Shown: positions 20,718 to 60,800 of the stretch, piece after piece | How the letters are laid out: every line of letters begins with the position of its first letter | How positions within the stretch are numbered: position 1 is the first letter of the stretch | Source of the DNA: Saururus chinensis | Taxonomy: Eukaryota > Streptophyta > Magnoliopsida > Piperales > Saururaceae | Assembly: GCA_035235625.1 (NCBI GenBank) | Contig: CP141147.1 | Coordinates: 8,049,001-8,113,000, forward strand | Direction: 5' to 3' | DNA length: 64,000 nt | Translations under genes and position numbers: made by a program | Notes under the pieces: generated by a model | What the model was told of the DNA's origin: nothing | What the model saw: the letters and a program-made list of their open reading frames with translations, nothing else | Databases searched by the model: none

Positions 20718-22947
20718 GAATTTTTTCCATATTACCTGGCCCAAGATATAAATATTTTATATTTATTAGATTTTAACACTTAATCCTATGTGACCTGGTT
20801 TAGAACAAATATACCCTTAGGTTATAAATAAACTCATACCCAAGTTCTTATCTCATTAATGAATAATGAAAAGGGGTCGGGACGTCGTTCTAGTGGGGAG
20901 GTGTTATCAGTTGCAAATTACCGACAATAGCTCACCAAAGGCAGATCACCAGTGGCAACTTATAGATAGGTGGCCTAAGGTGGTAAAACCCTCATTTTTC
21001 ATTTTCCCTCTATGGAAGCTTTCCTAGTAAAACAAATTGTCATTTCTCAGCACCTGTGATCCATCCTCTGGCATAATGGACAAAGTGACTCATAATATGA
21101 TGTGGCTCATATTGTATCAATGATAACACAATTTGTCAATAATACATTTTATTGATTATATGATGTGTCATATTGTGTTAACGATAACACGGTGCGTTCT
21201 TTGTGCTAGCGACCCATAATATAATTTGGTTAATATTACATATATGATAGCATTACATGATAACAATACGTGTTATTGATAATATAATATACTCCATATC
21301 GCATATACAATAACACGATATTCACTATATCATGTTAACGATAACACGATATGTGTTCTTTGAGCTAACAATTTATAATATGATATCCTCCATATTGCAT
21401 ATAAAATAACACGATAACACGATTTGTGTTATTTGAGCTGACAACTCATAATAAGATATCCTCTATATCGCATATGCAATAACACGATATTCGCCATATA
21501 ATGTTAACGATAAATGATATGTGTTCTTTGAGCTTACAACCTATAATACGATATCCTTCATATCGCATTTATGATAACATGATATTCACCATATCGTGTT
21601 AACAATAACACGATGTGTTCTTTGAGCCAACAACCCATAATATGATATCCTCCATATTGCATATACAAGAACACGATATTCATCATATCGTATTAACGAT
21701 AACACGATATGTGTTCTTTAGCCAATGACCCATAATACGATATGCTTCATATCGCATATACGATAACACAATATATTTGCCATGTAGTGTTAACGATAAT
21801 ACGATACGTGTGCTCTTTGAACCAATGACCCATAATACAATATGCTCCATATCGCATATATGATAACACAACATGTCAACAATATGTGTTATTGATAATA
21901 GGATTTGCAACATATCGCATATATGATAACACTATATTCACCATATCGTATTAACGATAACATGATATATGTTTATTGAGCCGATAACTCATAATACAAT
22001 ATGCACCATATCACATATATGATTACACTATATTCACCATATCGTATTAATAATAACATGATATATGTTCATTGAGCCGATAACCCATAATACAATATGC
22101 ACCATATCGCATATATAATAACACGATATTCACCATATAGTGTTAACGATAACATGATATTGTGTTCTTTGAGCCAGCGACCCATAATATGATATGCTTC
22201 ATATCACATATACGATAACCCGACATGCCAACTATATGTGTTATTGATAATACAATATGCTCTCTGTCGTATATATGATAACACGATGTGCGTTCTTTGT
22301 ATGTATTTGAAAACACAGCATTTATAACATTTGCCAATACGTGTTATTGATACAAGTGTTTATCAAGGCGGGGATGAAAGACACTAAGATTGTGACATGC
22401 TTACAAAAGATGTTCTACACAATAACTTGCATACAAAAACCATACTAGAGTCCCTCTTTCTCTTTATATAGTAGGGTAGGAGGCCACAATGGCTATTCTT
22501 TAGTGTCCTTCCTTAGAATCCACATCTCTCTCCATTTTTATATAGCCTTATTCTCCCTCGATAATCCCCCATTATTCCTTTTTGGAGGTGTCATCCCGAT
22601 CTCCTTTGTAGAGATATGTAGTTTAAGTGGTTAGAAATTTTTTGACAAAAATTAGAGATGTGATCACTGATGAAGTGAGGGAAGCCAACCATCACTAGAC
22701 AGAAATTGGAATTTGCTATTGATGGGAATCATTAGGCGAAAATTGCAAATCGCCACTGAGCTCCGATTGCCTCTTTGCTTGTGAATCGTAGCGATTGGTT
22801 TGCACGATTTTAAAAATTAACCCTTGATATAGGGGTATTTTGGTCTAATTTTTTTAAAACATCATGTATACCCAAGTTCTATAGAATGTTTTTAACAAAA
22901 CTAGGAAATGTGGAATATTTTCATGGCCAAGTAATATGAAAAATCTC
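20718..22947. mobile_element. Non-autonomous Mutator-like element with internal tandem array
   Basis: Left terminus GAATTTTTTCCATATTACC and the complement of the right terminus (GAGATTTTTCATATTACTT) are TIRs related to each other and to the TIRs of the 15.5-kb MULE at 41931-57445. Both arms continue into a shared AAAATACCC/TACCCTTAGG block. Flanks AAATAGAAA (20709-20717) and AAATAAATG (22948-22956) are a decayed 9-bp target duplication. The paralogous segment near 24050-24075 runs across this point without the element, which is an independent empty-site proof. It encodes nothing recognisable. Most of its length is the array listed next; 20830-21060 and 22340-22830 are unique, non-coding DNA. 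Confidence 0.85.
21180..22300. repeat. ~97-bp tandem array carrying inverted TATCGTGTTA motifs
   Basis: The phrase CCCATAATAnGATATnC returns near 21540, 21636, 21729, 21829, 21987, 22085 and 22183, giving a unit of about 95-100 bp and roughly eleven degenerate copies. Each unit holds CATATCGCATATA, then TATCGTGTTA facing TAACACGATA a few bases apart (for example 21592-21614), then GTGTTCTTTGAGCC. The inverted motif pair can form a small palindrome. The same word is scattered through the non-coding parts of the large MULE, so the array is a property of this transposon family and not a centromeric satellite. Confidence 0.85.
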
Positions 22948-22956
22948 AAATAAATG

Positions 22957-23080: not shown

Positions 23081-23290
23081 TAATAGAAGGACAAATCAAG
23101 TATTCCCTTGTGCCCAAACTTGAAACACAAGAGTAGAAACAAGGATCTAGGGCTTTCTAACATGGGTAAAATAAGAAACTTTGGAGAGTAGAAAACATGG
23201 AATTAAATGCAAGCAAGTAAAACATGGGATTCAAGGTAAAAACATAAAAAATCTTGAAGTAGACTTGCTTGGCTTACCTTGGATGAAGTT
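23081..23290. repeat. Dispersed repeat, copy 1 (partner 27186-27415)
   Basis: It shares AACACAAGAGTAGAAACAA, GGATCTAGGGCTTTCTA, AACTTTGGAGAGTAGAA, TGCAAGCAAGTAA and GACTTGCTTGGCTTACCTT in the same order with 27186-27415. It sits between the two A-B units. No coding capacity is apparent. Confidence 0.75.
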
Positions 23291-23292
23291 AG

Positions 23293-25755: not shown

Positions 25756-25852
<97 letters not shown>

Positions 25853-35783: not shown

Positions 35784-35810
35784 CCCCCCCCCCCCCCCCC
35801 CCCCCCCCCC
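35784..35810. repeat. Poly-C tract, 27 bases
   Basis: This is an uninterrupted C run. Such runs are prone to length error in sequencing and slippage in vivo, and the complement could form G-quadruplex structure. Confidence 0.95.
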
Positions 35811-41880: not shown

Positions 41881-41930
41881 AGAATGTTATGTCATAATAT
41901 AGCTAAAAAAATTTAGCTAGTTAAAAAAAA

Positions 41931-42056
41931 GAGTTTTTTCCATATTGTCGGGCCAAAGAATAAAATATTCTATATTTCCTTAATTTTAAACGAAAATGCC
42001 ATATGACCTGGAATAACACGATATAAGCTAAATTTTGGACTAAAATACCCCTGACC
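41931..42056. repeat. Left TIR of the large MULE
   Basis: GAGTTTTTTCCATATTGTCG..., GGCCAAAGAAT, GCCATATGACCTGG and ACTAAAATACCCCT match the complement of 57342-57445 in order. TAACACGATA at 42014-42023 lies within this arm and is missing from the right arm. Confidence 0.88.
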
Positions 42057-42795
42057 GGAGGTAGAGTTTTATATCATGTTAAACCCTCACAAAGTCGCAT
42101 TTATTGGCATACAACTTCAAATGCTGGCGATTCCTCCAAGTGAAAAACTCCGTTCCGATTAAAAACTCACTTCCGACTAGAAAGTCCTCTATTTGAGCAA
42201 AGTGTAAGTGGTGTGTGAGAAGTTTTTGCGACTTATCCGACCAAAACATAGAAGATTAGGGATCTTTTGTTCTGGAAGGAGTTTGAGTTTGCGAAGAACA
42301 AGTTTTGGAACGAGGGTTTCTCCTAAGCTGAGTTTTGAAACTGTACGCCCCAAAGCTGGTTCTTGTTTGTAGCTCAGTTCGGGTTTGCGCCGATCCTTGA
42401 AAAGCAGCGGCCGAATAAGTGTTTAATCCGGCTCGGAGAACAACAGTTTCGTGGTAAGGCATTTTAGACATTTAAATGCACAATTTTTTATTTAGTGTGT
42501 ACTCACACACATGACATAGGTTGTCAAATCAGACTAACATTGCGTCAGAAAGACGATACTACATATATCGTGTTCTCAATAAGAATAGGGGAAACACGAT
42601 GTTTAACCATAATGATGTCGTGTATGCAAAGGCTTCTTAGCGTATGTTCGATTACACGATACATATATTTATCGTCTCTATAGAAGTTAGTTAGAAAGTG
42701 TGAACCAACGCGGCTATTGATTATGGTCATGACCTATTGTTGATTGACACATATATATCCAATTTTTTAGACATAAACTTAGAGTATTACATCAA
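42057..42795. other. MULE 5' non-coding region upstream of the DUF1985-like gene
   Basis: It holds several copies of the family word (ATCGTGTTCTC near 42559, AACACGATG near 42593, ATTACACGATAC near 42652). It presumably contains the promoter of the gene starting at 42796, adjacent to the TIR as in other MULEs. Confidence 0.55.
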
Positions 42796-44101
42796 ATGGT
42801 GGAGTCAGTGAAGGTTGCAGAAGAGAAGAAGAAGAGAATCTATGGGAGAAGAGCGGGTCTGGGAACGAATAGTTTCCCCGCTGGACTGCGTCTATCAAAA
42901 GACCTTGTAGATTCACATCTGGGATGCAAGGCAATTTTAGTGGAGTCTGGGTTCTACCCAGTATATGATTGCAAGCCCATCATCATCTCCAGGCCGCTGT
43001 TGGATGTACTCATTGGTGATTGTTGGGACGACTCACTTGAGGTCTTCAACATAAGGGGCAAAAAACTACCCCTTACAGTGGCTGAAGTGGCTATGATCAC
43101 AGGGTTGAGTGAAAAAGGGAACCCGTGTAAATTGGAAAGCAGCGAGGGGAAGGCTGCCCAAGGCAAGGGGGAATTCTACAAGAAGTTCTTCCAAGGGAAG
43201 CGGCTGGAGAAGGCAGAACTGGAAGAATTGTTCAAAGAAGTGGCTGCGGAAACAAAGAATGTTTTAGACAAGGACTTAGCACGGTTGGCGATCGTGCACA
43301 TGGGTGTCCTCATGTTATTCACGCAGAGCAACAGAGTCGTATCCCCAACTCTATGTGATTACTTAGATAACTTGTTGGTCATGGGGAGCTACAATTGGGC
43401 AGGCGCAGTACATGATTTGCTTATGAGAGGCATATCGGTAGCCCATCGGAACATCATGAGCAAACAGGACGAGCATTCTGCCACAGGCAGAATTCTCGTA
43501 GGGGCTTCATTAGTGTTCCAGGTAACGCTCGTATGTGTCACAAACTCTAATATCGTATTTATAATAACACGATATGTTTTAAAGAGATGAATATCGCCTT
43601 ATCAGTCACATGATACAACTCTCCCTCGTGTTATCGGACATATGCCATGTAACATGCACGTATACATATTGTGTTCTCGAAAACACGATGATGTATTATA
43701 TCGTGGAGGTCTCATTAGACGATCGTAATTTATCGTGTTACCGGAAACACAACGTGTCTTTTCGCGAGTTATAAGAAACATGACTAACCTGTTATATTGA
43801 AGATACTGAACATTTTAGACTAATGTTCATATTCTTTCGTATTGTCCGCCAGGAATGGTTTTATGAGCATACGTCCATATGGGCTCCAAGTGGTCCTCCA
43901 TGCAGCCCAAGGTGCAAGAGGTGGCCCGGATTTACCCAACTTTTGAGCGACGTGGAACTTGACCCAGCCAACAAAAAGGGGAGGAAGAAGATTATATCTC
44001 ATCACCAGATGCCGAAGTGGTACGAGGATGTCTTCATGAGGCTTAAGCCAGACTTGCAAATTGTTATGCGCATCACACCAATTTCGAAGAGGCACATTTG
44101 A
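42796..44101 (+). CDS. MULE-encoded DUF1985 / plant-mobile-domain-like protein (two exons)
   Basis: Exons 42796-43521 and 43853-44101 join in phase (LVFQ to EWFYEHT) to give 324 codons with no internal stop. The N-terminal 30 residues are basic (VAEEKKKRIYGRRAG). Then comes a fold-typical core: EVFNIRGKKLPLTVAEVAMITGL, DLARLAIVHMGVLMLF, LDNLLVMGSYNWAGAVHDLL and a WFYEH turn, in the order seen in transposon-borne DUF1985/PMD proteins. Related DUF1985 proteins of Arabidopsis VANDAL elements (VANC) bind element-specific DNA words and remove DNA methylation; the same role here is inference. The intron (43522-43852) is packed with the CGTGTTA word. The TGA at 44099-44101 may be a true end or a frameshift, because a GTR/Pro-rich frame continues to 44640. 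Among the genes of this element it is the best preserved. Confidence 0.75.
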
Positions 44102-45160
44102 TGGATGGACAAAGGGCGACCCCAAAAGCTAAGAAGGTGGGTACGCGGCCTTTTCAAACAATGAGACCCGGCCATGCCACCCATGGCGAGACGTTGGGTC
44201 ATGTACATTCCAGCCATGGCATCATTGAATCATTCGTCATGCCAGTTGATATCATGACGGGAATTTGTGAAGTTGTTTTGGAGAAGGCTATTCTGTACGG
44301 TGAGCGGGGATGGAACACGGATCGAGTTGCAGCTGCACTCTAGCATGTTAAGGATGATCTAGAGGTGGCAACTAGCCTCATAGAACAGATGCAACCCCCC
44401 GAGGAACGAGAGACAGAATAGCCGCCTGAACCCAGTCAACCGGTGGTCGCCCAAGCATCAACCCCTCCTCCGATAACCGAAGGATCACCTTTGGCTCGTT
44501 CAAAGGCAAGAGCATCAAAATCAAGAGCAGATCACCAACCATCTGCCCCCAAGCATCAACCAGTGCAAGTCCCGCAGCCAGTGGAAGAGGGATTCATTTT
44601 GAGTAAGTACAAAAATTTGGTTAGGGGATATTCGTGTAGTTGAGTACATGATAAGAGATCATATCGTTGAGTAAGACAGATGATGGTTGGATTGTCGTGC
44701 CATCGATGACACGATCATTGAAGCAAGAGTTGTGAGAACCATCTTTGCGTGGTCGTGTGACTGTGAGCACAATTGGGCTTCTGTAGTATTTCTACGAATA
44801 CGATAATAATATGTATTGTGTGTGTAAAGGATGACGTGTATGGATATCGTTTAGTACCTAACACAATAACTTACTTTTTATATACAAAGAAACGGCAACC
44901 GCAAGCTGCCACCAAACCGAAGAAGAAGATTGGTCCGAAGTTGTGAAGGACCATAATAACTAGATTTTTGACGAAAATAAATGTGGAATTCATGGAACAA
45001 CAACAAATGGTCGTGCATCAACCACGGGGTGTCATGGATCCACCCCATGAGGTGGAAGAACAACCCCGGGATGCCGACAAACAATCCAAGGAGGTAGAGG
45101 AACCGGAACTTCCGCGGGATGTCGTCGAACAATCTAGGGAGGTAACAAAGTTTTGAGACA
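44102..45160 (+). pseudogene. Linker region of MULE genes: Pro/Glu-rich coding relics
   Basis: Open stretches 44098-44343 (with FVMPVDIMTGICEVVLEKAILYGERGW), 44443-44643 (Pro/Ala/Lys-rich, KARASKSRADHQPSAPK) and 44968-45156 (acidic, repeated PRxVxxQ/DxxEE) are separated by TAGs at 44341 and 44418 and a motif-bearing spacer at 44640-44880 that looks like an intron. They could be the C-terminal half of the DUF1985-like protein or the N-terminal half of the peptidase protein, the two possibly having been one fusion as in other MULEs. Confidence 0.5.
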
Positions 45161-46471
45161 ATGCCAAGCCTCGAAAGCCTGGTGACGAAGTACCTCTGGC
45201 ATCAGCCCCTGGCCCAAGCATTATCCATTCAACACACCAAAGTCTCCCCCCCGGAACCAGTAGCCCCAATCGCAGTTTCCAGTAAAGGCACTATATCGGA
45301 TACTCCTCCAATAGATGCAGACGTATTGGAGAGAATCCGCAATGTTGAAGATGTCGACGAAGATACTACGACTAAGACGAACATGGAGGAGACAAGTATG
45401 CGGCCAAAGGACTATCTTGACACAAAGTTGGTGTTCCACCTGGAGGTTCAGGAAGAGGCAGTCAAGGAAATTATCACGGAATTTTTGCTGAACCCATACA
45501 AGTCGTGGCCCGTAGAGACCCTCCTATACACCGACTACCGATCTTTGTTAAAGTAGGATTGCGTAATGAATGAGGTCTATTCATTGCTCATACGTTTTAA
45601 GCTCTATCGTGTTATCAATCAAATGACTTAGGCTCATATTGTATTATCCGATTACAATGAATTATCGTCTTACCGATTACATGACATACGATCCTATCGT
45701 TGGGTTTCATATACACTAACTAGCTTCTTGTAATTGCTGAAGTAAAACTAGCGTGTTAATGAGCACACGACTTGTAACTTCATCCTGTGATCGTAAACAC
45801 GGTATAGTAACTTATCGTGTAATGTCATATGACAATCGGTAGCCTATCGTGTCATTACTAACACGTATGGTATTGTGTAGGTTATCGACATCTTCTTCCA
45901 ACTCCTAGAGGAATGAAATATATGAAATCCATGCAGGTACCCCATCTATTTTTTCGGAAAGTTCTCCATTCAACACTACTTTAACGTTGGCTCGGCGGAA
46001 GGGCCGGCAGAGAAGGAGTGCAAACTCTCTGGCATATTGTTGAGAGGCCTGAATGTTAACACAGAAAGCGGCTTCATTCTTGTATACGTCAAAGGCCACT
46101 TTCTCTTGCTTATTGTTCGCTGCAGGGAGAAGTGATTTAGGTGGTACAATCCTCTAAAGGGTGATCACAGTCACCACTTCGCCAAGGTGGACAGTGTCAG
46201 GAAACATGTTGCCAATGGAATGGAGAAGGTACTTAAGATAAAGGGTGGTCGGACGTGGCCACTAACTAAGATCAACAAATGCCCGCACCAGGAAACAAAT
46301 GAAGATTGTGGCATCTACGTCATGTACTACGTAGTGAAATTGGCAGGAGGCGTCATTCAGCCAGATTTTAGACAGCTCGAGATAATAGGCTTGGTCAGGC
46401 CGATGATATGTGCTGCTATACTTTGGGCCCGAATCGAAGAGGAATTTGATCTAGCTATAGATGAATTGTAA
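45161..46471 (+). pseudogene. Ulp1-like (C48) cysteine peptidase of the MULE
   Basis: Exons 45161-45552 and 45937-46471 join in phase (LLK to YPIYFFGKFS). The catalytic His lies in GHFLLLIV (codon 46097-46099), followed by WYNPL where family members have the Asp region, and the Cys in NEDCGIYVMYY (codon 46307-46309) with a preceding Gln in CPHQ, as in Ulp1/SENP de-SUMOylating enzymes. C48 domains are frequent passengers of plant MULEs (Kaonashi/VANDAL types). An in-frame TGA (46133-46135), where a Trp codon would suit, separates His from Cys, and an eight-C run near 45247-45254 coincides with a frameshift upstream. The intron 45553-45936 carries the CGTGTTA word. The substrate is unknown; without readthrough the protein would be inactive. 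Confidence 0.75.
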
Positions 46472-46537
46472 AAAGACCACTTATTTTGTATTTAATTATT
46501 GTGAGCCCTTATTATTTTTGTACTTAATGACTATACT

Positions 46538-48835
46538 TGTAGCACCCGAGATTTCTTTTATGTGCTCTCTTTCCCTAATTCATTTTTAGTAATAATTCTT
46601 AGTAATATTGAAATGTTAGAAATAATTTTGTGGGCCTGATTTGTTTTAACATTGAGTGGAAGGGCCCAAACTTACATTTGGAGTGAGGTTGTTGTGCTTT
46701 GGGCCTTCTAATTAAATGCTTTAATATTAATTTATGAGAAAGAAATCTCGCATCCTCGAGGCATCACTAGCTTTGCCTTAGACCATGGAGCCATACACAC
46801 TAAATTTAATTGTTATAGTAACAACGGAGAATGAGATCCCATATAGCCTTGGTTAGGCTTCGTTAAAACGTAGGAGGCGTGTAGGGCTGGAATCTGGTGG
46901 ATGCAACGGGCGAGGGAGGGAGAGTCACTGATGGGCATCTTGAGTGATAAGGATTTCTGACTTAATTAGACTCTACTTCATAAGGTCAAATCCCTATCTC
47001 TCTATATATATGCAACACTTTTCTTCCTCCGGGCAAAAACCTAGATAAAGAGTATTTGGGGCAGGGATGCACTCTAGAAGCGAGGGAAGAGTTTCGGCTT
47101 GGTGCAGAGTTCTTGGCTTCTCTACGGGTAGGATTTCTATAGGTTTTATATGCTAAAATACTTGCATAAGATCTCCTCTAATTAATATGCTGTATTTGAA
47201 TATGATTGGCTCCGTGATTTTCTATTTACATAGAGGATTTGTATGTCAACCAAGAAAACTCATATACTACCGTGTTTATTATATGTTGATGCTTTTATTC
47301 TTGGTGCGAAATTTTGGGGCACATATTCAGTGATTTTGTTAGAAAAGGAGTTGTCCTTGATGTTTCTTTAGAATGATGATGCAACAAGATTTAACTACGG
47401 AGTGGAAAGATTTGTCTTTTTTTGGTTTTTAGACTGAGGAAATCAAAAGTTGGTTTGTGGTTGTGAACAAGGATAGGGTTGGAACCTTTGTCATTCACCA
47501 AAATACTTGTCATCTTGTTCTAATTGGTTGGGCTGATAACATTTGAAGTTAGATTCACGTTGTTTTGTTTGACTTATTGCAACGCCCAGTGTGTTATTAT
47601 CATGCTCTGTTTTCTAGTACGCTGGGTACAGTAAACAGAAGTTCTTATCTCAAGCTCAGTTTTCTTTTGTCCAATTATATGCTGATTAGGTGTTGTTTCT
47701 TTTGCTGCCTTAATACCTTATACATATTTTGTTTCAATTACCTTATAGTGAGTCTTGTTGGTTGAAATTAATGCTGAAGTTTCATCTCGCCCATATTCTT
47801 CTTTCTTTCTGTCTACATCAATGGTGGTTGAAGCATTCCTGTGTAAATTAAGTAAATGCCTTGCCTAGAGTTTAAACATCTTCTGGGACACTTAAATGCA
47901 TGTTCTTGAATTTGGGAAGCAATTCAACAATGGTTAGAAGAAATTGTAGGGGAAAAGAAAAAGAAGCTCTGTGTTGACGTCCTGGGTGATGATTTTGATT
48001 TTCCCCTTGATGGAGACTTCCCAGCAATGGATAGTGGCTGTAACCAACACTAGCCCCAGTTTGTTATTATTAGATTCATGATTAATTCTATCTATAGTCG
48101 AAGTGTTTGGTGGGTTTTTTTGCTAGTGGTCACAAAGCTGCAGTCTTGAGAACAGGGAATCGTTTTCCCTGTTCGGTGTTTATGGAAGGTGACACACAGT
48201 GAACCAAAAGTTGGTCTGGTTCACTGCCACCTAATTCTAGTTCTAGAAAATTGATATAATATCCTTCTTTTAAGCCATGGCCGATCTTTTGGGTTTTGGA
48301 CTCTCTAGAGGACTTTACCTTGGACCTTTCAGCCGTGTTTGGTCCACCGAGCCTACATAAGGCTATAACGCGTGACAAAGGTACCTGGGCATCATGGAAG
48401 GCTCATGTACCTCCGCCACTCGTGTCCATGAGCATAGTGGGACCCTAACTCCTAGAACCATGGCTGGTTTATAAGAACCCTGGGGGTTTGGGATTGGGTT
48501 AAGTGATTAGCCTACTCCATAATCGGAGTCCGTTATTCTCTCCTTAAGTAGGAGTTGTGTTCTCTCCTTGAGCTAGGAGTCGTATCTTTTTGGGTTAGAA
48601 TATAGCACCCCTAAGTGGGAGTTGTTCTTCTCTAAGCTGGAGTCATGTTTCTTGTACATTTCTATAGGGATGACCTTGTACTTATTATTGTTGTCATTTT
48701 GGCTCTTGTTGCAGAATGTATTAATTAGTGAACTTGAGCACTAGGTGTTGAAGTATAGTGAGTATAAACTTGAGGAAAACACTTGTGCCAATGGGTAGAT
48801 CTTAGGATTAAGAACACCTGAGTTGTAATATTTTC

Positions 48836-48899
<64 letters not shown>

Positions 48900-49314
48900 A
48901 TTTTTATCCTATTGAGTATAAGTGGATATACTCATGCATCTTAGTGATGCAGGTATCTACAAGGAGTAGTTGAGTAGCTGGATTCGCAGGGGCAGAGGCA
49001 TTGCTTCAGAGTAGGACTTGCTTTATTTTCATTGAATGTAATAAGGCATGAGAGTTGCCATTCCATACTTTACTTGTTTATCCTTAAATGGTTATCAAAT
49101 TTGCACATAGATGAGACCTGGCTCGTTATTTAATGAGTTTGAATGACTATTATTGATAATCATGGTTTGATATTATCGTTATGTTGGAAAACGGCAGTCC
49201 GTGACTGGGGATTATTTTAGTCGTTATTTTGCATGATAAAAAAAAATTATACTAGGTTTTTTTTTCCGCTACATTTACTTCAAAAATGCTATTTCAAAAA
49301 CCCTCGCCGCGACA
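46538..49314 (+). mobile_element. Solo LTR (2.8 kb, gypsy type) inserted in the MULE
   Basis: It starts TGTAGCACCCGAG and ends CCGCCGCGACA-like (CTCGCCGCGACA), the usual TG...CA limits of plant gypsy LTRs. No internal domain, primer site or second LTR is found, so it is a solo LTR. Inside, 48380-48540 resembles 1060-1320, and 48530-48650 has repeated TAGGAGT/TGGGAGT words. A clean 5-bp duplication is not visible. The ~25-bp direct repeats at 46511-46536 and 49321-49345 appear to be part of an older tandem repeat in the MULE (a third unit at 46478-46500). MULE-type CGTGTTA words are absent within it and resume right after it. Confidence 0.75.
48837..48897. repeat. (TA)30 microsatellite
   Basis: TA dinucleotide run inside the solo LTR. 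Confidence 0.97.
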
Positions 49315-49927
49315 GTACCAATTATTTTTGAACTTAATTGCTGTACGAATGTAAGATGGTGTATAATCAATCATACGATTTGTATCCATATCGTGTATTC
49401 AATAGTGCAAACTGGCAGTACGCATATATCTGTTCATATTATAGTTCTCACGATCGCCTATTATGTTGTGTTATCGCATACACGCCAACTCGTATTAGGT
49501 CATGTCCACCTTGAATTCACATCTCGTATTAGGACATTTGTGATGTTGGGAATTGGATGATAAAATTAATGTAATTGTCGTGTGCTCGATCACACGCACT
49601 ATTCCATATCGTGTAATGGATTACACAATCCAATTAATAATCACTATCGCAGTTGCCTATTATCGTGTAATGCGTAACATGCACAACCTTTTGGTCATGT
49701 GGGTGATGACACGCTACGCATTTACAGTACACCCTTTTTACAAGTACCCATGTCAGATGGCGTATATTGTTCAAACAATTTCTGCCCATGTCGTGTATTA
49801 TTGGCGTGTGGTCATTTACACTATATACGACCTTATCATCTGATGGAACATACGACAAGCATTGATAGCATGTTTGTAAGCATGCAGTCATGATGTTGTA
49901 AACAAAATAGCTTGCAACCTCCTGGGA

Positions 49928-50070
49928 TGGACCATTCGAGACATTGCTATAGCGCCTAGTCGCGTACTTCCCCCACTAGATCAAGGTGAGCCCCTTATCT
50001 GACAGGGGGAAGATACACCATCAGGTGCAAAAGCAATCTCTGGAATAATCTGCCTCAAGTTGAGTTGGCG
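49928..50070. repeat. Hairpin repeat, copy 1 (most diverged)
   Basis: GACCATTCGAGACATTGCTATAGCGCC pairs imperfectly with the complement of CAGGTGCAAAAGCAATCTC, and CCCCCACTAG with CAGGGGGAAG. It is the same plan as the copies at 50136, 51035 and 51230. Confidence 0.65.
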
Positions 50071-50135
50071 TGCGATCTCCTTGCATAATCACAAATCCAT
50101 CATTGTCACGAATCATAACGAATAGGGCGCGAATA

Positions 50136-50285
50136 TCGACGGATCATTCGAAGTCATTGATATATCGCCGTCTAGTGAATCCTACCCACCATCGGATATA
50201 GGTGATGACTGTGTCCGATGGAGGGCCGATTCACCAGCCGCAGCCACAACAATCTCCCGAATGACCCATCTCTGCGAAGATCCAG
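50136..50285. repeat. Hairpin repeat, copy 2
   Basis: GATCATTCGAAGTCATTG and CCATCGGATATA on the left face CCGATGGAGGGCCGATTC and CCCGAATGACC on the right. The arms can fold into an imperfect stem of about 60 bp. Confidence 0.6.
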
Positions 50286-50315
50286 TGTGTGAGCATTCTG
50301 CAAACCATAACCCTA

Positions 50316-50464
<149 letters not shown>

Positions 50465-50728
50465 AGCAGGGTAAAACGGATACAGACCGCCAGGTAAATG
50501 AAGGTATTGATGCTTCTAGAATAATGCATCGGGAATCGGGTCAATACAATCCTATCATTGTCGTGGGTTTAGACACACGTTATTGCCAACATCGTGTAAG
50601 CAACGGAGATATTATCGTGTAATTGTATCCCATTTTGGCATGCTATGCTGTCGTGTAATCAATAATACGTTACACACATAATTCGTGTATTCGTAACGCC
50701 GACTTATTTCCAATAACTTGGTGGACAT

Positions 50729-50864
50729 CGTGTTATCGATCTTACGATAATGGTGTATGTTGTGTTATCGATCTTACCATAATGATGTATTTCGTGTTAT
50801 CGAGCTTACGATAATGGTTTATGTCATGTTATCGATCTTACGATAATGGTGTATGTCGTGTTAT
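50729..50864. repeat. 32-bp tandem repeat (four units) built on CGTGTTATCG
   Basis: The units start CGTGTTATCGATCTTACGAT and are followed by AATGGTGTATGT, repeating four times with few changes, then a partial fifth CGTGTTAT. Each unit holds the family word and its near-complement (ATCG...CGAT), giving regularly phased potential binding sites. Confidence 0.92.
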
Positions 50865-51034
50865 ACACGAATACATCTTTCCACGTGAAAACAGTATATA
50901 ACTGATATTAATATTTTCCTTTAATTTGAAAGGGCTTTCATTACATACAACAAACTAATATTTACAAAGTGGTGTATAAATACAAATAAATAAACATTCT
51001 AAAGATAGTGAATCGTGCCCTCATCAGTTCAATT

Positions 51035-51185
51035 GTAACGGAACATTCGCGACATTGATATTACGCCGGGTCAGTAAATCGCCCCCCTTCAATGGCTGGT
51101 TAGTATCGCACCACTGAAGGGGGTCGATTAACCATCCAGTGCAATATCAATGACCGAAAGGATCCGTCTCTTGCTCCGCGAATAT
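51035..51185. repeat. Hairpin repeat, copy 3
   Basis: CGACATTGATATTACGCC pairs with CAGTGCAATATCAATG, and CGCCCCCCTTCAATGG with CCACTGAAGGGGGTCGA. It is the clearest stem of the four and lies ~195 bp before copy 4. Confidence 0.75.
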
Positions 51186-51229
51186 CAATATGTGTGCGAT
51201 CTCCATGCAGATTCACGAACTCATCACTT

Positions 51230-51385
51230 CAATTGTGATGGAACCTTCACGACATTGAAATAACGCCGGGTAGTAAATCAGCCCCCTTCAGGGGCTGGTT
51301 AGGACCGCACCACTGAAGGGGGATACACCATCATGTGCCATATCAATGTCCCAAAGGCTCCGTCTCGTGCTCTTCGCGAATTGGG
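51230..51385. repeat. Hairpin repeat, copy 4
   Basis: CGACATTGAAATAACGCC pairs with ATGTGCCATATCAATG, and GCCCCCTTCAGGGG with CCACTGAAGGGGG. It is closely related to copy 3. Confidence 0.75.
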
Positions 51386-52360
51386 TAAGCAAAGAGGGCA
51401 CTTAGATATATATAGGTAGGTTGCGAGGGATACGAATCGTTAAATATTCCATATTTAATGTAATTGGAAATTGGAAATGACTCCTCATGAATTGGTGATC
51501 CCAATTTAATTGAAATCCCGGAAATTGTGGTGACGCTTCGAGAATTGGGTGGTAAAATTAATGCAATTGTCGTGTGCTCGGTGGCACATAATGTTGTATA
51601 TCGTGTAATGGAGTACACACTATGAACAATAATCACTATCACAGTCGTCAACTCATCGTGTAAATGTTAACACGATATACACGAAAGTCGTTTGAAAAGA
51701 CAATACAAATTTGATCAAACGTCGTGTGGTCGGCAACACGATATACACACAGAACGTGTTAAGCCATACACGCTTCAACAAGGATCATCCAAAAAGCTAA
51801 TCTTTACAGAGGAGTGAAAAAATACAAAGATAATAACAATTCACCTAGGCACAAGCCATCAGTTGGCGTGGTCGTGTTGGTGCTTCGGGCAGGATAAGAC
51901 GGTTATGGACCGCCAGGTAAATGAAGGAATTGGTGCTTTAGGCATAACGCTTTAGGAATCAGATCATTACGATCATGGAATTGTCATGGGTTCGAACACA
52001 TGTTATTACCAATATCGTGTAAGCAATGGACACACTTGATTACAAAATTAATAATCGTATGATATTATTGTGTAATTAGCAACACGTACCCAATTTGGGT
52101 TGTGTTGTCGATTACACGATATACATATACAGTATACCCTATTTGCATTATGTCATGTTGTCCAATACATGTTAATTACATATTCCGTGTTGTTTATAAC
52201 ACGATGTAAATACAAAATTTCAGCTGAAGAACGGGGGTGGAAAAGGTAAGCCTGATCTATGCTCTCCTTCCTTACGCCGTTTGCATGCGCTATTATTTGA
52301 CCTCCTTCAGCTTGTCGTTGGTATATCTGCCACATTGGGGGACCCTCCATGTGCGCTGGT

Positions 52361-55300
52361 ACATCATTTGCGGTTGTGACCCAATTGGCCACATGTTCCA
52401 CATTTTCGTGAGGCTTTGAGAGGTGGTTGTGACTCTATCCAATTTTTTCGTGGACGTCCCCGCTGCTTTTGAGGGATAGGTGGGTTGAATGTAGGCATAA
52501 CTCCAGCCGGTGCCCACTGGTGCCGATCCTTCGTTGGGTGTAAGGGCTCACGATAGGTCACTTTATACATTTCAGTAGAGTACCATCTTTCGTAGTACTC
52601 AGACACATAGAAATGTCTATTATCGATTGCTACGATTGCATGCTTACATGGTAGACCCAGATGTTGAAAGCATCCGCATGTGCAAGTACGATCAACAAGG
52701 TTTGCCACATCCTGTGAAGAAAATATTGTGAGTAAGAGAGCACGATAAATGAATTTATTGTGGTCTCACGTACACGACGCATCTTACGATTGTTACGTAA
52801 GACGTATCGACTTACACGTTCAAGGACAATACGTGTGTAACCTAACACGATATGAAGCCCTAACGTATAAACAAGCATAAGCTATGTACATTGCCGTATG
52901 AATGCAATGTACCTGGTGATGTAGCGAGTTAACCTAGAATTCATACAGTGACACAGGCAATACAATCACATTCCTAGCTTCTTCTCGCCTGTTTTCAATG
53001 TGTTTTCAGGCAAATGGGGTTAACTCTTCCATCATATTTTGTCCGTCCGTCCGACATTTTTCAAATAATGTCATTGTGTGCTCCCTTGTGTGCTCAATTA
53101 AACGTGTTATAGGCATCGATCTATTTGAGCTGAGTGTCCCATATCTTTTCCCTGGAAATGATACATTGGCCCAGTGATCCGAACCTATCTTATTTAGCCA
53201 AGCATATGCTTCCGGATTATGTTCTTTAATGTTATTCATTGTTTCATCATACACATTCTGTCTGAATGTTTCGGCTACAACATGGAGCTGATTCTTTAGG
53301 TAGTTGTCCTTGAATCTGTCTAGCATATTTGCTGCCATGTGATGGATGTAATACCCGTGGCATGTAGATGGGAAAAACTTCATCACAACATTTGTCAATC
53401 CCTTTTGTCTATCTGAAACGGTTGTATCCAACTCGGCTGGAGGATCAAAGAATAGATGATCTCTAAGCAACTCAAGAAACCAGCACCAAGTTTTCTCACA
53501 TTCATTCTCAACCACTGCAAATGCAACACACAACATATTATTGTTCCCGTCCAGTGCAGTTGCTATCAATAGCTATCTAGGATACTTTCCTTTCGAGAAT
53601 GTTGCATCAACCGTTAGCAATGACCTTAGGGTGGTTCTGAAAGCTCTCGCAACGGGGCCAAACATCCAGAATACTCTTTTGAAATCGTACCCACCCATAG
53701 GTCCGGGAATGTCACATGATCTCACTGGCACAACTACACTTCCCGGATTTATATATTCTAGTTGTCTACTATAAGAAGGAAGTAAGCGGTAGGATTCGTC
53801 TGGGTCACCATCTATTAAGTCAGTCATAGCTTTACCTGCACGAACAAAGACAATTTAGTAAATGGTATACGACACCGGCTTACATTGTGTTCCCGATCGC
53901 ACGAGAATTTATGTTTTTGTGTGATTGGAATCCTACACGATGCCTGGTCATGTTGTTTGTAACACGATATTGAATTATGTCATGTGAGTGCATATTCCGA
54001 CTATAGTTTAAGCGTGTAAACGATAATACGCTAGACTAACATAACGTGACACTAAATCGACACTTCGTTTCTTCTCATGCATTACCTGCGCGCCAGCATT
54101 TCTTGTAGTTCGCAGTTATGCCCCAGTGCTTCAAAATATAACTTGTTATGCTCTTAGGTGTAATGTCCACCGAGTCTTTAAAGAGGCCATAACATTTTCT
54201 TGCTATCCAAAGGTGTGATGCCAGGGGATGGTCAGTTGACTTCCTTTGGGTTCCACATGAATGAGTCGGCACTAACCTCGTGACAATCACATGATCTCCT
54301 ATATTTGAAGCCCTTATGTACCAGTTACAAGATTCATTGGAGCACTTTGCGGCATATGTATTCTGGTTTTCATCCACAACACGATATGTGAAATTCGCCT
54401 TTATTGCTAGGTTGATCAAGACCCTCTTGAAATGTAACAGGCTTAGAAAATGTGCACCCAATTCAAGGAGCTTCTGGTAATCCTTAGCTTGCAAGCTACC
54501 TGTCATTAGCTGGCCTTCATCAATATTCAGTTCCAACATGTTTAAATCATCGACAGTATCCCAATCTGCATCCGCCTCAACGTCGACATTACTGGGAACC
54601 ACGCTGTTTACAAATTCTTCATGGTCGAACATACTTTCCATGTTAACTATATTATTATCGTACCACAGATCCTCACCCCACATATTCTCAACTTCTTCGC
54701 CTTCTCCGCCTTCATAATTACAAGGGTTGTATGGAGGTTCGTAGTTATCAAATGAAGTGCTTGTCCAACCCATCATTGGCGACAATTCCTCTGATCTATT
54801 TTGGTTGACTTCTATTTTAGGTTCTATACTCGTTGGATTGGTGAAAGATGATTGGCATGGATTTGTTGAGGGCAAGTTTCCTGGATCTCTCAATCTGCTT
54901 TGCACATTATCGTGTTAAAAAAATGCAACATCAGTCGACATCGTGTATTCTGTTAACACGCAAACATTTCAAGACGTGTTATCGAAACCACGATAGGAAT
55001 GCATGTCGTGTTATTATATCTACAATGCAACACATAATTGCTCTATCACATGTGTATATCATGTAATTACTAATATGATATATTACAGGTCGTGTTTATA
55101 ACTTCGCACGATATGATTTACCCTTAACATGATAAGTTCAATATCGTGGTCTCGAGTGCACGAAATATACCAACTGCGTATAATCTAAAGATCCAATATT
55201 GTTACCTGACAGTTTCAAAGGTGAACTGAGTTTCATTGAATCTGGTATGAAATCCAACATTAGAGCTGGGATGAGCCATTATGATGGGTGATTCAGCTCT

Positions 55301-57100
55301 ATTGACTGTCTGGTTCCTTTCAACGGAGGGTGATGGTGATTTATCACCGTTGTCGGGTTGTTTCATCTCGGCATAGAATGATAACACCTCCTTATTTGCC
55401 TTCTTATGAATGGAGAACACTGATTGGAGATCCTCATCATCTTTTAATTCATATATCATGGATGATTGGGATGATGGAATTAAATACTTCAAACTGACAT
55501 TACCATTGATGGAAAGTCGTGCTTTGACTTGCTGATGCACTAAAATAATGTTCAATTAAATATTTTTAAATTTTAAATTATAATCCTATTTTGTGTTAAT
55601 TCATTGCTGATTTGGGTTATTTATGTTTTGAATAAGTTAGTTGGACTTTAATTGAATTTACATGTCTAAACAGGCTTTAACAGGATCTAAGTAGAAGAGG
55701 AAGTAAAGCCCATCTACCCAAAGCTATTTAAAAGTCAAGAATGGGCTCCTAATGGTCTAAACATGCATGGAACAGTCAAACACAACCTTGTGGACCCGTT
55801 TGATTTGAGATTTGTATGAAGAGGACTAAATTAGGAAAGAAGCTGATTTGGACAGATTGATAGAGCTTTAGTATTTCGATCATATCTTTTTATGTATAAT
55901 TCGGATGGATACGATTCTAGTGGCATTGAAACGAAGACTTCCATAGCTACAAATGATATTGCGGGAAGAAATTCCAAATTCTGAAGATTCATGGGTCGAA
56001 TTCGGCATGCAAAGAGACAGCTAGTAAACTAACCCGAGGCCAGCACATGAAGAATATTTTCATTGATTATGATTGATACACATAAGGAAAGACAAGGAGG
56101 CTGATTGGTTAACTAAAGGAAGATTCAATATACTTATTTGCTAAATAAATTATTAATTTATGTGATTGATTTAGAATCTAATCATTGCCAAAGAAGCAAC
56201 CAATCAGGCAATCAATCAGGATACAATCTAGAGATATGATTTCACCTTCCTCTTTGAAGCAACCCCTTCTATTCCTATAAATAGAGGGGTGGACATGATA
56301 GATGACTCATCCCCTCCTATGTGGAGCTCTCTTCTCCTATTTTCTTCTCTACTTTTGTATTTTTGTTTTTAGTTTTATTGTATTGGCTTTCTAAGCTCTC
56401 AAGCTAAGGCTAGAGGTGATTTGTAACAATTTAATGGAGTTCAATTCATGTTTCATCAATGGTTTCAAGTAAGTATTGTTTATTTAAAATGATGTTTATT
56501 TAATATTGTTCTTCTTCTTGTTTCTTTATGATTTGGATATATAAGATGCTTGAAGGCTCTCCTTTTTGATCTTTTGTGATTTAGATACATAGAAATCTTT
56601 AAAAGACAATTGTTTTTATCCTTCATCTATCCAAAGCATTTCTATTTTTATTTTCAATTTTAATGTTCATATCTTCCGGTTAGATAGAATTTTTATTCGA
56701 TTCTAACTGAGATCACATGATACATGAAGAACATCATTAGATGTTACAATGATCCTTAATGCCTTAGTGTTTTCTCATCTTGATTTCTTAACTCTATATT
56801 ACTTCAATACTCTTCTACTCTTTCTTTCTTAATTTTCCTTTCTCTATTTTTTTCATAATAGTTTTCTTTGTTGCACAAGGCTTTCCCTGTGGATCGACCT
56901 TGTCTACTACAATTGGCAAGTAAAACAAATCTGAATTTGACTTCTTCATAGTCTTGTTTCAGACGTAACAACACTTGCCCCAGCAGCTCGCCGAAGCTCA
57001 CTGACGGATGAATGTTCATCAACCGTGCCATTCCACCGATATACATGACGTCATTGCCTACCTCTCCATTATAATGGATGCAAATACAGATCCTATCCAT
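52361..57100 (-). pseudogene. MuDR-type MULE transposase, disrupted
   Basis: Exons read on the minus strand: 57100-56921 continuing after an LTR insertion at 55545-55206, then 54894-54086, 53835-52913 and 52711-52361, all with GT-AG borders in phase. The start MDRICICIHYNGEV is the usual MULE transposase N terminus, followed by a PB1-like part. Exon 54894-54086 has the acidic region and the Cys/His DNA-binding fold (CSNESCNWYIRAS...THSCG). Exon 53835-52913 has the MULE transposase core with Asp in VDATFSKGKY and VSDRQKG and the CHGYYIHHMAANM signature. The last exon has the SWIM zinc finger (CTCGCFQHLGLPCKHA) and a CCHC knuckle start (CGTCGQLGHN). Damage: TAG at 53573-53575, TGA at 53006-53008, a TAG near 52935, TGA at 52361-52363 inside the knuckle, and the 1.4-kb LTR. 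Introns carry the CGTGTTA word. Confidence 0.88.
55546..56920 (+). mobile_element. Solo LTR (1.4 kb) inserted in the transposase first exon
   Basis: TAAAA at 55541-55545 and 56921-56925 flanks it. Removing the insert and one TAAAA rejoins the transposase frame without a stop, which confirms the borders to within a few bases. Inside are a TATA box (CTATAAATAGAGG, about 56275-56287), a pyrimidine-rich leader and the 3' phrase CCCTGTGGATCGACC seen at the ends of plant gypsy LTRs. The ends are not the canonical TG...CA at exactly these bases (TGTTCAATT starts at 55549). There are no coding domains. Confidence 0.75.
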
Positions 57101-57341
57101 GATCGGTGTGAAAGAATGATCATTTTTGGGAAATGTAGCTTTTGGAGCACTCAAACAGCGTTTGCGGTTTCAAAAATCACTTTTTTCTTGTTCATCAACT
57201 CTCGCCAGTAAGTTACAGCCGGTCAGCTCCCGCCGGCAAGTTCCGTTCACCGCCGATGACTCCCAGCACACAGGAATGGCGCAGCACTATTCCGGTGTGC
57301 ATTTATTACAAGCTAAACATTTAAAACATGATATAGTGAAA

Positions 57342-57445
57342 CCTAAGGGTATTTTGGTCCACAACCAGGTCATATGGCATTTCCATTTAAAATCCAGGGA
57401 ATATGAAATATGTCATTCTTTGGCCAGGCAATATGGAAAAAACTC
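57342..57445. repeat. Right TIR of the large MULE
   Basis: It ends ...CAATATGGAAAAAACTC at 57445; its complement matches 41931-42053 (GGCCAAAGAAT, GCCATATGACCTGG, AAAATACCC). Weaker similarity extends inward to about 57300. Confidence 0.88.
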
Positions 57446-57892
57446 TAAAATTAAATAGCATGAATAGTAAATCACGAAGATTTTTTTTTCTTTTCTTAAA
57501 TGTAAAGCAACTCGTTTGATAAAATGTATACATCATAATAATTGGGTTCACAAATATGAATATTAAAACATATCATTTTATTTTACTTCTCCAAAATCCA
57601 TAATTAGTGGGCTAACCATCTAAGTGCAAATCTATCATCCATATGGAAATAAATAACAAAGCAAAGTTGGCTCTTACGCTATTATTACAAATACTTAGCC
57701 ACCTGTAACCAAAAAAAGACTGTGCAATGATGGAGAATTTTCAAAAGATAAAAGGATAAATTGTTAATACTTAGATTAGGCCAACATCCCTAAGATGTTA
57801 GTTATCAATGTAACCATTGACTTGCATGTATAATGTCATATAAAAAAGATCAAATCTAGAGTAATTTTGCCTAGCAACTAACTATAACACCC
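57446..57892. other. Intergenic between MULE and LTR
   Basis: AT-rich, with no gene, repeat or signal recognised apart from the MULE target-site remnant at its left edge. Confidence 0.6.
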
Positions 57893-60800
57893 AAGAATTT
57901 TTAACATATTTTCCTAAAAATGCATGAAAATTGTTTGCAATATAACGACTGTAAATTAATAAAAATGACAAATACAAAACTTGTGAAAGCAATTTTATAA
58001 TTTAAAACATCATACATCAATTTTTCCTGTACAAATTTGTTTCTTTTCAATCAAACATCATACCGCCAAATCAAATGCTCTCAGGCACTACTCGAAAACA
58101 AATGTATGAAATAAATCGATGTGATCTTAGGCTTTAAATACAATCCCTCCCATGCATCCTTGCGTACATGTCCAATAAAAAGTCCACTATCTAATCCCAA
58201 TTGCAAGTCCAAAAAGTACAATTTTTATGTCACCCAATACATCATATCATGGCACAAATAATAAAGACTCATAGTGAGTCAATGGTATACCTAAGCCAAT
58301 GAAAAATGATCCACCTATGAAAACAAGAGTGCATCTCCAAGAGATCTTCGTCATGAACCTGCAAAAGCCTCCTAAAAATCAAGGCTAAAAAATAGGAAAA
58401 AATAAGTATTTTTATATTAAATAGGAAAATACTCAGTAGCGGAGTTCTAAACAATGAACTCGATAAGTCCATACATAGATGCGTTCATACAAATCAAACA
58501 TGAAGCAGGTAGGTATATAATAATCCAAACCTCACCATACAACAAAACTATGCACATACACATACAATCAAGCCAAATATCCTTACACTTACTATTATGC
58601 TTACAGTCATACTCGTACAACCCTTACACTTACAGTATTACTCAAAACATTCTTACATTCTTTCTCATACCATCTTACTTAAATTCTTACTCTTACAGTC
58701 TTGCTCAGAAAGATACGCTTACAGTCTTGCTCAGAATCTACTCTTATAGTGTTACTCAGAATCTTAAACTTAAATCTTGCTCATAATCTTATAAATATAA
58801 GCTCCAATGTCGAAATGGAAAGGAATTTCATTGGGGCATCACCTTAACCTTTAGGGAGTAACTAGAAGCCATGAACTTTTTTAAAGGCAAGACACACCTA
58901 TGCTCATGGGGCACAAGATCAAATAGGTAAGTGCAATTCCATGATACTAATTACCTGAGCACGCAAATACCCACACTCTAAGGGCCATGCAGTGCCAATT
59001 AAGAGCAAAATAATACAATACCACTCTTGGGCTAGAACCTTACAGTGCCACTCTTAGGCAGAACCATACAATGCCAACTAAGGGCAGAAACATACAGTGC
59101 TCTCAACAAATTATCAAACATTTGGGCTTAATACAACACACATACAAAGTAAAAAACATACAATGCTCACGACAAAGCATCAGGCATCTGGGCTTAGATA
59201 TATTACACAGATAACATCTCACAGGATAAACACCATGGCAAGACATGAGAAATGCTCAGCCGACTCATTATTAACCAGCTCAAACACGAAATTTAATTCG
59301 TCAAAACCCCCAGGTCTCAAATTCACAATGATATCATATTAGCTTTGCTTATAATTTAAGTTTGAACTAAGTAATTTATGCGGGTACAATTATGCCATAG
59401 AAACTTTCATTCTTATATTCTTTCACTAATCAATTTGAAGCTGAGCCTATTATGAAAGCCTAGTTCATTAGGACAACAGACTTCATTTAACCCATCCAAC
59501 TAATAATCATAACTCACCGTACAACAAATCCTTACAAATTCATACAATCTTCACCATCCACCTTATGGCCAAATCATCTTACTCGGAAGTCATCAAAAGA
59601 AGCTCCTTAGAGCGAACCTCAGTTATCACCCTCTTGCTTATACCTCACTTATTATGCTTACTTTCCACTTCATAATATGTATCTTATGCTTGTACAATTA
59701 TGCAGCACTCTTACTGTCTGACAATCCCCCATAAGGCTCCAAACCTAAGTTCTCTTACTTATTCAACCCCCAATGTACACTCTAATCCAAACTAACCTCA
59801 TCCGCTCCAATCTTTACCCATCAAACTTACATCCTCTGTCTTTTATCATACGGTTACAAATCCAAATCTAAATCTATACATAACCCTCAATCACCTCTTA
59901 TCGTCCATCGCTTAAACATCTGCCCCACGCACATACACGTATCCTTCATATAGGCATATAGCCATCATACATATGTATTTTCATCACACATATGTATAAC
60001 ATATACATAATTCCATACATAGCTTACCAACATATTGTCTAGCCATCACTAGCATACTCATAATCCACATACATCAAACACACTTTTAGCTCACATGCAT
60101 GCCATAGGCATTTTAAACATATCATCATTTATTGGCTTTCAGTCATGCATCATGCAATTGGATAATCACATAATACCCAAAGCATTAAATCATACAATCC
60201 TAGCATGTTGCTACACATTCAAATCATACTATCATGAAATTACAAGTTCAAATCTTCCCTACCTCATAATCCATGACGTTTGATGGAGAGCACACGACAG
60301 TGGCAGCATCAGTGGCAGAGTTGGTTGCCAAAAGCATCACCTAGTTGAGAGAGCTATTGTCCTGAAGTTATGAAGCACTAGAAGTAATCACAACAATACG
60401 AGGGTGAGAAAAACCAATACGGAAAAATTCACCATCGAGGGCACACAAAAGAGCAGAGGGCATGGGGAGATGCTCGAGGATATAAGAAAGGTGCATGGCT
60501 TTGGTGATCAAATCAATCAGTAGCATAGCCATCCGATGGTCAAACAATACAAAAATGGCACCTACACTAAAGCGTACGTGCCACTTGCACACACAGCAAA
60601 TAGGGCCACTTGAGGGGGAGATGGCTTGGATGGTGGCAGTCCAAAGCCCAAAAGAGCAACTAGGAGGTGGTGACCGACCAAAGTGGTAACATTGCCAATC
60701 GCCACCCACAACCAAAATATTTGATGCGAGCCGCTATGCATCTAGCACGGTAGAGGGTGAGGGGGTGTCTCTGAGTCGAGCCGATGTGGAACAAAGGCCA

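Follow-up and report, generated by a model that had tools for sequence, protein, structure and literature searches.

The window analysed here is a 64,000-nucleotide stretch of the Saururus chinensis genome (contig CP141147.1, positions 8,049,001 to 8,113,000 of the forward strand; coordinates below count from its first letter). It contains two related DNA transposons whose noncoding DNA is crowded with one short word, ATCGTGT. The larger, element 1, has the MuDR-type transposase, the terminal inverted repeats (TIRs) and the target duplication, here imperfect, by which a Mutator-like element (MULE) is recognised. Its other gene codes for a DUF1985 region and an Ulp1-type Peptidase_C48 (C48) domain, and we call it VANC-like after the DUF1985 proteins of Arabidopsis VANDAL elements. 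The parts of element 1 are given below in base pairs (bp), with an exon and intron model drawn by eye from reading frames and splice signals.

41922..41930: probable 9-bp target site duplication, left copy, 7/9 identical to 57446-57454
41931..57445, plus strand: element 1, a once autonomous-type MULE with TIRs, now decayed; 15.5 kb including two insertions
41931..42040, plus strand: left TIR, beginning GAGTTTTTTCCATATTG; from the TIR alignment, inner end approximate
42796..43521, plus strand: exon 1 of the VANC-like gene, with DUF1985 (Pfam E 1.5e-7, 31.9 bits)
43522..43851, plus strand: intron 1 of the VANC-like gene, word-rich
43852..44602, plus strand: exon 2 of the VANC-like gene, with 2 stops and a frameshift near 44095
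44603..44890, plus strand: intron 2 of the VANC-like gene, word-rich
44891..45551, plus strand: exon 3 of the VANC-like gene, with a frameshift near 45283 and stops
45552..45935, plus strand: intron 3 of the VANC-like gene, word-rich
45936..46472, plus strand: exon 4, Ulp1-type Peptidase_C48 (Pfam E 2.7e-7), with one internal stop
46473..49300: first insertion, mostly inserted DNA, a putative long terminal repeat (LTR) without ATCGTGT; ends approximate
49301..52239, plus strand: intergenic spacer, word-rich, containing a 32-bp tandem array at 50728-50864
52240..55545, minus strand: MuDR transposase gene (exons 55208-55545, 54086-54907, 53006-53836 and 52240-52714)
55546..56960: second insertion, a putative LTR without TCGTGT; ends approximate
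57335..57445, minus strand: right TIR; from the TIR alignment, inner end approximate
57446..57454: probable 9-bp target site duplication, right copy, from sequence comparison with the left copy

The TIRs are imperfect inverted repeats of about 110 bp. The transposase gene, all three introns of which are word-rich, retains the Pfam domains DBD_Tnp_Mut (9.6e-11), MULE (1.9e-14) and SWIM (3.7e-9). Both genes are broken, with two frameshifts in the first and stops in both, and element 1 is a decayed pseudogene copy. A preliminary description of this DNA had assigned DUF1985-like, C48 and MuDR genes to a MULE, and the Pfam matches bear this out, that to DUF1985 lying under the cut-off.

The word is concentrated in the noncoding DNA of element 1, where ATCGTGT occurs 29 times against a mean of 2.2 in shuffled sequence; there is a single match in the exons and none in the inserts or in the rest of the window. 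The shorter TCGTGT gives 48 noncoding matches, against a mean of 5.0 and a maximum of 12 over 200 dinucleotide shuffles. Elsewhere its counts stay close to the shuffled means: 1 against 1.7 in the exons (at 54378), 1 against 0.5 in the inserts, and 8 against 7.1 in the remaining 46,236 bp of the window. Chance or base composition as the source of the word is judged unlikely from the dinucleotide-shuffle counts. Five introns were checked (43522-43851, 44603-44890, 45552-45935, 53837-54085 and 54908-55207), and each carries ATCGTGT, with at most one mismatch, at 20-30 per kb. The preliminary description had reported word-rich introns at these places and exons nearly free of the word with one match near 54380, and it had proposed counting the word in exons, noncoding DNA and inserts against shuffled sequence; the counts sustain it on each point. 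Its statement that the inserted LTRs lack the word holds for ATCGTGT but not for TCGTGT.

A search of the genome (516 Mb, 11 contigs) returned 7608 matches to TATCGTGTTA and 2016 to the reversed word; together with the shuffle-level counts in the rest of the window, this agrees with the earlier view of a word private to the element as against unrelated DNA. The matches are clustered: of the 100 listed places, 79 lie within 3 kb of another, where the random expectation is 5.4 on average and 16 at most. From the noncoding DNA of element 1 we derived a weight matrix, which gives the half-site AT[AG]TCGTGTNATC. At a threshold of at least 8 bits its sites reach 19.1 per kb in that noncoding DNA and 20.0 in the second element of the window, with 0.78 in exons, 0.24 in inserts and 0.48 in the rest of the window. 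The matrix derives from element 1, so that tests on other copies carry the most weight. Within element 1 the sites occupy eight separate noncoding segments with varied flanks, including the 5' subterminal region, and the right 485 bp hold no TCGTGT.

The preliminary description missed that the word is half of a rigid palindrome. ATCGTGT belongs to one arm of a 26-bp palindrome in which the half-site AT[AG]TCGTGTNATC is joined to its inverse GATNACACGA[CT]AT. Across seven sequence sets we found 225 dyads at a half-site spacing of 13 bp and between 0 and 12 at each of the other spacings from 8 to 21. Among matrix sites of element 1, 38 of 143 convergent pairs are separated by 13 bp between core T's, with spacings of 14 and 15 bp seen once each; 41 of 238 same-strand pairs lie 32/31 bp apart, and 27 of 128 divergent pairs 19/18 bp apart. 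The fullest bin in 1000 random placements held 7-9 pairs (7 for convergent pairs). Without the matrix, exact CGTGT pairs within 45 bp give the same picture, with 8 of 18 convergent pairs at 13 bp and 11 of 20 same-strand pairs at 31-32 bp. Genome-wide, the pattern ATCGTGT-N(2-30)-ACACGAT is matched 1314 times and its reverse 178 times; among 50 distinct places listed N is 8 in 32, 19 in four and 30 in three. Divergent pairs number 927 against 45 reversed, and the N of 9 or 10 predicted beforehand was found in 35 of 50 listed places.

Neighbouring dyads are in turn spaced by gaps that tend to whole helical turns, often 31-32 bp, and R at 10.5 bp is 0.50-0.77 depending on the set; the accompanying p-values pool partly homologous sets and are not independent. 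Tandem 31-bp repeats account for some of this phasing, and with gaps of 30-33 bp left out R is 0.44 at 10.6 bp (88 gaps). The majority sequence of intron 1 from 28 copies of the family illustrates the arrangement: it carries seven plus-strand half-sites with successive gaps of 41, 32, 43, 32, 32 and 31 bp, and six of the seven are partnered at exactly 13. Dyads are mostly whole helical turns apart, which places successive sites on the same face of the DNA.

The smaller transposon, element 2, lies outside the region covered by the preliminary description, which did not recognise this second element, built of the word.

20718..22948, plus strand: element 2, a non-autonomous relative with diverged TIRs, 2.2 kb
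21115..22287, plus strand: array of 18 palindromes inside element 2, in nested 31/95-96-bp tandem repeats

Element 2 is packed with the palindrome, and TCGTGT occurs in it 11 times against a shuffled mean of 0.8. No open reading frame (ORF) of at least 150 amino acids was found in it, and a target-duplication comparison at its ends gives 6/9 identity. A segment of about 600 bp is duplicated on its two sides (20078-20679 and 23288-24028, pieces 79-90% identical), so that element 2 looks as if flanked by the two copies of a host duplication.

The family extends well beyond the window. Exon 1 has at least 150 further matches in the genome at 72-87% identity (150 of 2771 candidates scored), and the TIR query 41931-42060 has at least 41 including the window itself, the others at 90-93% (40 of 1241 candidates scored). 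The preliminary description had proposed searching for elements that share the TIRs and looking for the word in them. One such copy, L040, is structurally complete at 9,039 bp, with the gene order of element 1, both TIRs and an 8/9 target duplication; its C48 and transposase genes are likewise in opposite orientation, plus and minus respectively in element 1. Its noncoding DNA (4,036 bp) bears 69 sites against 3 in 4,988 coding bp, with exon limits set by peptide matches and, for exon 3, partly by hand, and its right 540 bp have none. The transposase match of L040 spans two frames, and we do not claim that the copy is intact. In L039 and L041 the left end and first gene were seen, the right ends falling beyond the stretch covered. 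Across 29 other copies, site density is 9.9 per kb in the upstream 840 bp and 1.09 in exon 1; for the 28 with exon 2 found, it is 26.3 per kb in intron 1, and their exon 2 sequences, 13.6 kb together, contain no site. For the remaining copy, L019, neither an intron 1 match nor an upstream site was found, so that its upstream DNA is probably not part of an element; it is counted in the totals for exon 1 and the upstream DNA alone.

Gene-less relatives also recur. L007 is an element-2-like copy with both ends, 48 sites and a 31-bp repeat spacing, which adds to the tandem repeats of element 2 and of 50728-50864 in element 1. Among the first eight word loci, some of them overlapping, family ends are present in L001, L006, L007 and L008; L002, L003 and L005 have dyads or sites with no ends within 3 kb; L004 contains only one site. 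The density of ATCGTGTTA is 12 per kb in two non-autonomous copies against 3-7 in three autonomous-type copies.

The word is also conserved. Each of five diverged copies still has 7-10 sites within the 500 bp that follow exon 1. At non-CpG positions, 253 of 286 in half-site cores are identical to the 28-copy majority, as compared with 604 of 818 in the rest of intron 1 (Fisher p 7e-8). The excess has the same direction in 4/4 diverged copies, whose introns are 72-81% identical; the pooled test omits the fifth copy, L075, with its shortened intron.

To place the family among its relatives, we turn to other DUF1985 genes of the same genome. A DUF1985 search gave 957 candidates, of which 150 were scored, window-family places among those listed. 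The 30 loci taken from it comprise 28 of a group B, two of a group C and none of the window's family. In the tree, whose bootstrap had not settled, group C attaches by a long branch amid the rows of group B, and the proteins of L072 (group B) and L073 (group C) are 48% identical; the DUF1985 scores of B and C, 50.1 and 47.5 bits, exceed the Pfam cut-off. L072 is an element with DUF1985, C48 and MuDR genes, the latter two in the same direction; between its DUF1985 and C48 parts, at 4594-5132, runs a long acidic, Glu/Asp-rich low-complexity frame. L073 combines DUF1985 and C48, with no transposase recognised among ORFs of at least 120 amino acids.

Each group has a word of its own. In group B, 28 upstream regions of 1,500 bp together hold 164 copies of GAAAACTA, where 5.5 are expected, always in one orientation (164 to 0) and in 8/16-bp units. 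Group C has 198-bp and 177-bp repeats bearing CCTAACTGTTGACT-type words; in L073 the arrays with these units, at 1950-2881 and 8339-9191, have the word in common but in opposite orientations. The words of the window family (A), B and C were compared over a single 10-kb locus for B and another for C, with the 28 upstream regions added for B. Each word is frequent in its own group and falls to about background level in the other two, and those of B and C are likewise concentrated in noncoding DNA (one locus each). All three groups lack the Arabidopsis VANC21 and VANC6 motifs entirely or nearly so, in line with the preliminary description, which had held the word to be unlike the known VANDAL motifs.

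The window has some further features. Two leucine-rich repeat (LRR) ORFs of 820 and 819 amino acids lie on the minus strand about 20 kb apart (17603-20065 and 37658-40117); both resemble plant receptor-like proteins, with an LRRNT_2 match that is above cut-off only in the second. Small 23-27-bp tandem arrays stand outside both elements at 58629-58791, 59013-59100, 29969-30048 and 30285-30387. Long AT dinucleotide runs are found at 25759-25850 and, inside element 1 or its insert, at 48837-48901 and 50318-50464, and a 27-base C run at 35784-35810.

The closest known parallels are the VANDAL21/VANC21 and VANDAL6/VANC6 systems of Arabidopsis. These too are MULEs with a transposase and a second, DUF1985 gene (PMC5735166, PMC10398659), a private short motif dense in introns, intergenic and terminal noncoding DNA and not in exons, tandem repeats, and related families with other motifs. 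According to Hosaka 2017 (PMC5735166), VANC21 binds a dense, one-orientation noncoding motif and causes methylation loss, VANDAL21 targets form tandem repeats, and VANC6 has a different motif. VANC21 (9lnj_A) is also the top match in the PDB, if a weak one, for two overlapping profiles, the alignment spanning the DUF1985 domain; a protein search with exon 1 gave 932 candidates and none at E <= 0.001. The differences are equally plain. The VANC21 motif is YAGTATTAY, in one orientation, and that of VANC6 AGTTGTMC, whereas the window family has a 26-bp dyad with a fixed 13-bp spacing, in both orientations. Unlike VANDAL21 and VANDAL6, it has TIRs of about 110 bp and a C48 region downstream of DUF1985. 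Such TIRs are at odds with the absent or short TIRs by which VANDALs are defined, and the preliminary description had taken them to set the element apart. This separation is not clean, since PMC6446971 gives TIRs of 46-174 bp among VANDAL-group members, and long TIRs are therefore no strict separator.

The C48 gene, reverse to the transposase, recalls the Kaonashi/KIU elements (PMC13317346, PMC2528002); KIU Vandals are also described as recognising specific motifs (PMC13317346). In contrast, Arabidopsis Kaonashi/KIU elements are non-TIR, whereas the window family ends in TIRs flanked by probable target duplications of 9 bp, and in L072 of group B, unlike in Kaonashi/KIU, C48 and transposase are co-directed. 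MULEs of grapevine, melon and rice share an Ulp1 region, there in either orientation; the excerpts consulted describe for them no element-private word or DUF1985 reader (PMC2528002, PMC13317346). Overall, the window family has most anatomical features of a VANC system and differs in dyad symmetry, fixed spacing and TIRs. Among the titles returned by literature searches on DUF1985, and on DUF1985 with MULE and transposon, none concerned it. Sasaki and colleagues (EMBO J, 2022) are said to have described eudicot-wide VANC systems that involve DUF1985, DUF287 and Ulp1, in which motif density and helical periodicity reportedly play a role. Parts of the window-family system may thus already be described, which would limit any claim of novelty. 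In the best reading, the family is a variant of the known VANC kind, and the dyadic, phased address is the new point.

A VANC-like pair of reader and target, with a helically phased palindrome as the address, is the explanation that best fits these observations, and we hold it to be reasonably probable. It is preferred because the two other DUF1985 and Ulp1 groups carry other words and because VANC21 leads the PDB matches of the protein profiles, if weakly. The preliminary description had proposed the protein of 42796-44101, or another element protein, as the reader; a VANC-like reader is consistent with this, but the window copy is decayed and its own protein is thus probably not the active one. 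The window holds a dead autonomous-type copy and a non-autonomous relative, both of one large TIR-MULE family in which 26-bp palindromes crowd the introns, the spacer and the left subterminal region. On this explanation an element-encoded protein, most likely of DUF1985-(linker)-Ulp1 layout, would bind each palindrome as a dimer, neighbouring dimers aligning along one DNA face. Such dense binding would mark the family's own copies, gene-less ones included, as Arabidopsis VANC proteins do, and would remove DNA methylation from marked copies, or keep it off, leaving other loci untouched. The identity of the reader, its binding as a dimer, and anti-silencing through methylation loss are steps that we infer; the site itself, its spacing and phasing, its avoidance of exons, its presence across the copies examined, its conservation and the other words of other DUF1985 groups are observed.

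Several observations weigh against this explanation. The DUF1985 match of the window protein (31.9 bits) falls below the Pfam gathering cut-off of 35.1, the profile matches to VANC21 have E values of 0.045 and 0.017, and single-sequence PDB searches gave no VANC21 match. The AlphaFold model has a pLDDT (predicted local distance difference test score) of 35.9, too low for a DNA-binding fold to be seen in it. VANC21 sites are of one orientation (PMC5735166), whereas those of the window family are dyads. The best-fit period varies between 10.60 and 11.30 bp in six sets, and the L003 repeat array gives 7.70. In recent copies the conservation of half-site cores is marginal, 0.941 against 0.912 (p 0.047 with 28 copies; 0.0008 with 14 plus-strand copies). 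CpG positions are not conserved in excess (84/125 against 62/88), so that there is no sign of past protection from methylation; that CpG sites decay alike within the words and around them fits methylated, deaminating dead copies. Finally, among the 30 loci closest to the window in exon 1, 11 have this exon open and 19 carry stops in it. Most of these copies are decaying, and protection, if any, would therefore be only temporary.

Other binders of the dyads have also to be considered. The transposase of the element, rather than the DUF1985 protein, might use them as subterminal sites for synapsis or self-regulation, as it bears a DBD_Tnp_Mut domain and the 5' subterminal region has sites; subterminal transposase sites occur in other plant DNA transposons. 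Yet transposition needs both ends, and the right ends of L040 and element 1 are empty while sites fill introns in the middle of the element, so that transposase end sites are unlikely; we consider this reading quite improbable. The B and C words accompany their DUF1985 genes, but the transposases may differ too, and this comparison is indecisive here. A host factor, for instance a CGTG-core transcription factor used by the element for expression or for escape from silencing, is unlikely. The half-site core CGTGT presumably resembles the cores of CAMTA and NAC factors, and the word does occur singly, 21 of the 100 listed places having no neighbour within 3 kb. However, dozens of phased dyads in the introns of both genes exceed the needs of a promoter, NAC dimers have a spacing of N5-6 unlike the one found, and three DUF1985 groups of one genome carry three words, each about background in the others.

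The sites could instead require no binding protein at all. A 26-bp palindrome could in principle fold back, and the dyads might act as RNA or DNA hairpins (a small RNA source, a cruciform or a splicing signal). The arms speak against this: in element 1 (n=42) their complementarity does not exceed that seen when one arm is shuffled (lowest p 0.061, 16 column pairs), and in element 2 (n=18) there is no excess either (lowest p 0.451). This lack of covariation makes a hairpin unlikely and favours two independent half-sites read by a protein; moreover, each arm fits the consensus alone and neighbouring dyads are helically phased, and we regard hairpins as the remotest of these alternatives. Neutral satellite growth, that is, a readerless tandem repeat spread by slippage and inherited by all copies, would account for the true tandem repeats of element 2 and of 50728-50864, and the family copies are homologous. 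Against it, the sites lie in separate noncoding segments with differing flanks, exons are avoided and the spacing is exact. In diverged copies the half-sites are conserved above the surrounding intron, and inheritance alone is judged unlikely; growth of this kind is very improbable.

Returning to a VANC-like reader, we propose, as a view for and against which we see equal weight, that one genome houses at least three groups of DUF1985 and Ulp1 elements, each with its own word and probably its own reader. The code of the window family would be a homodimer site, made of rigid, helix-phased palindromes that are under selection and densest in gene-less copies, and thus a dimer-based anti-silencing address with an architecture unlike that of Arabidopsis. 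Sequence-specific anti-silencing has so far been worked out in Arabidopsis VANDALs. If our proposal is true, the strategy recurs with different DNA codes, here with a longer and stricter address in a copy-rich family. It would also lead to a clear-cut prediction of the way in which DUF1985 proteins read DNA, and to pairs of address and reader that could be used for targeted demethylation. The conservation of the half-sites, for its part, suggests that natural selection acts on the introns of a transposon.

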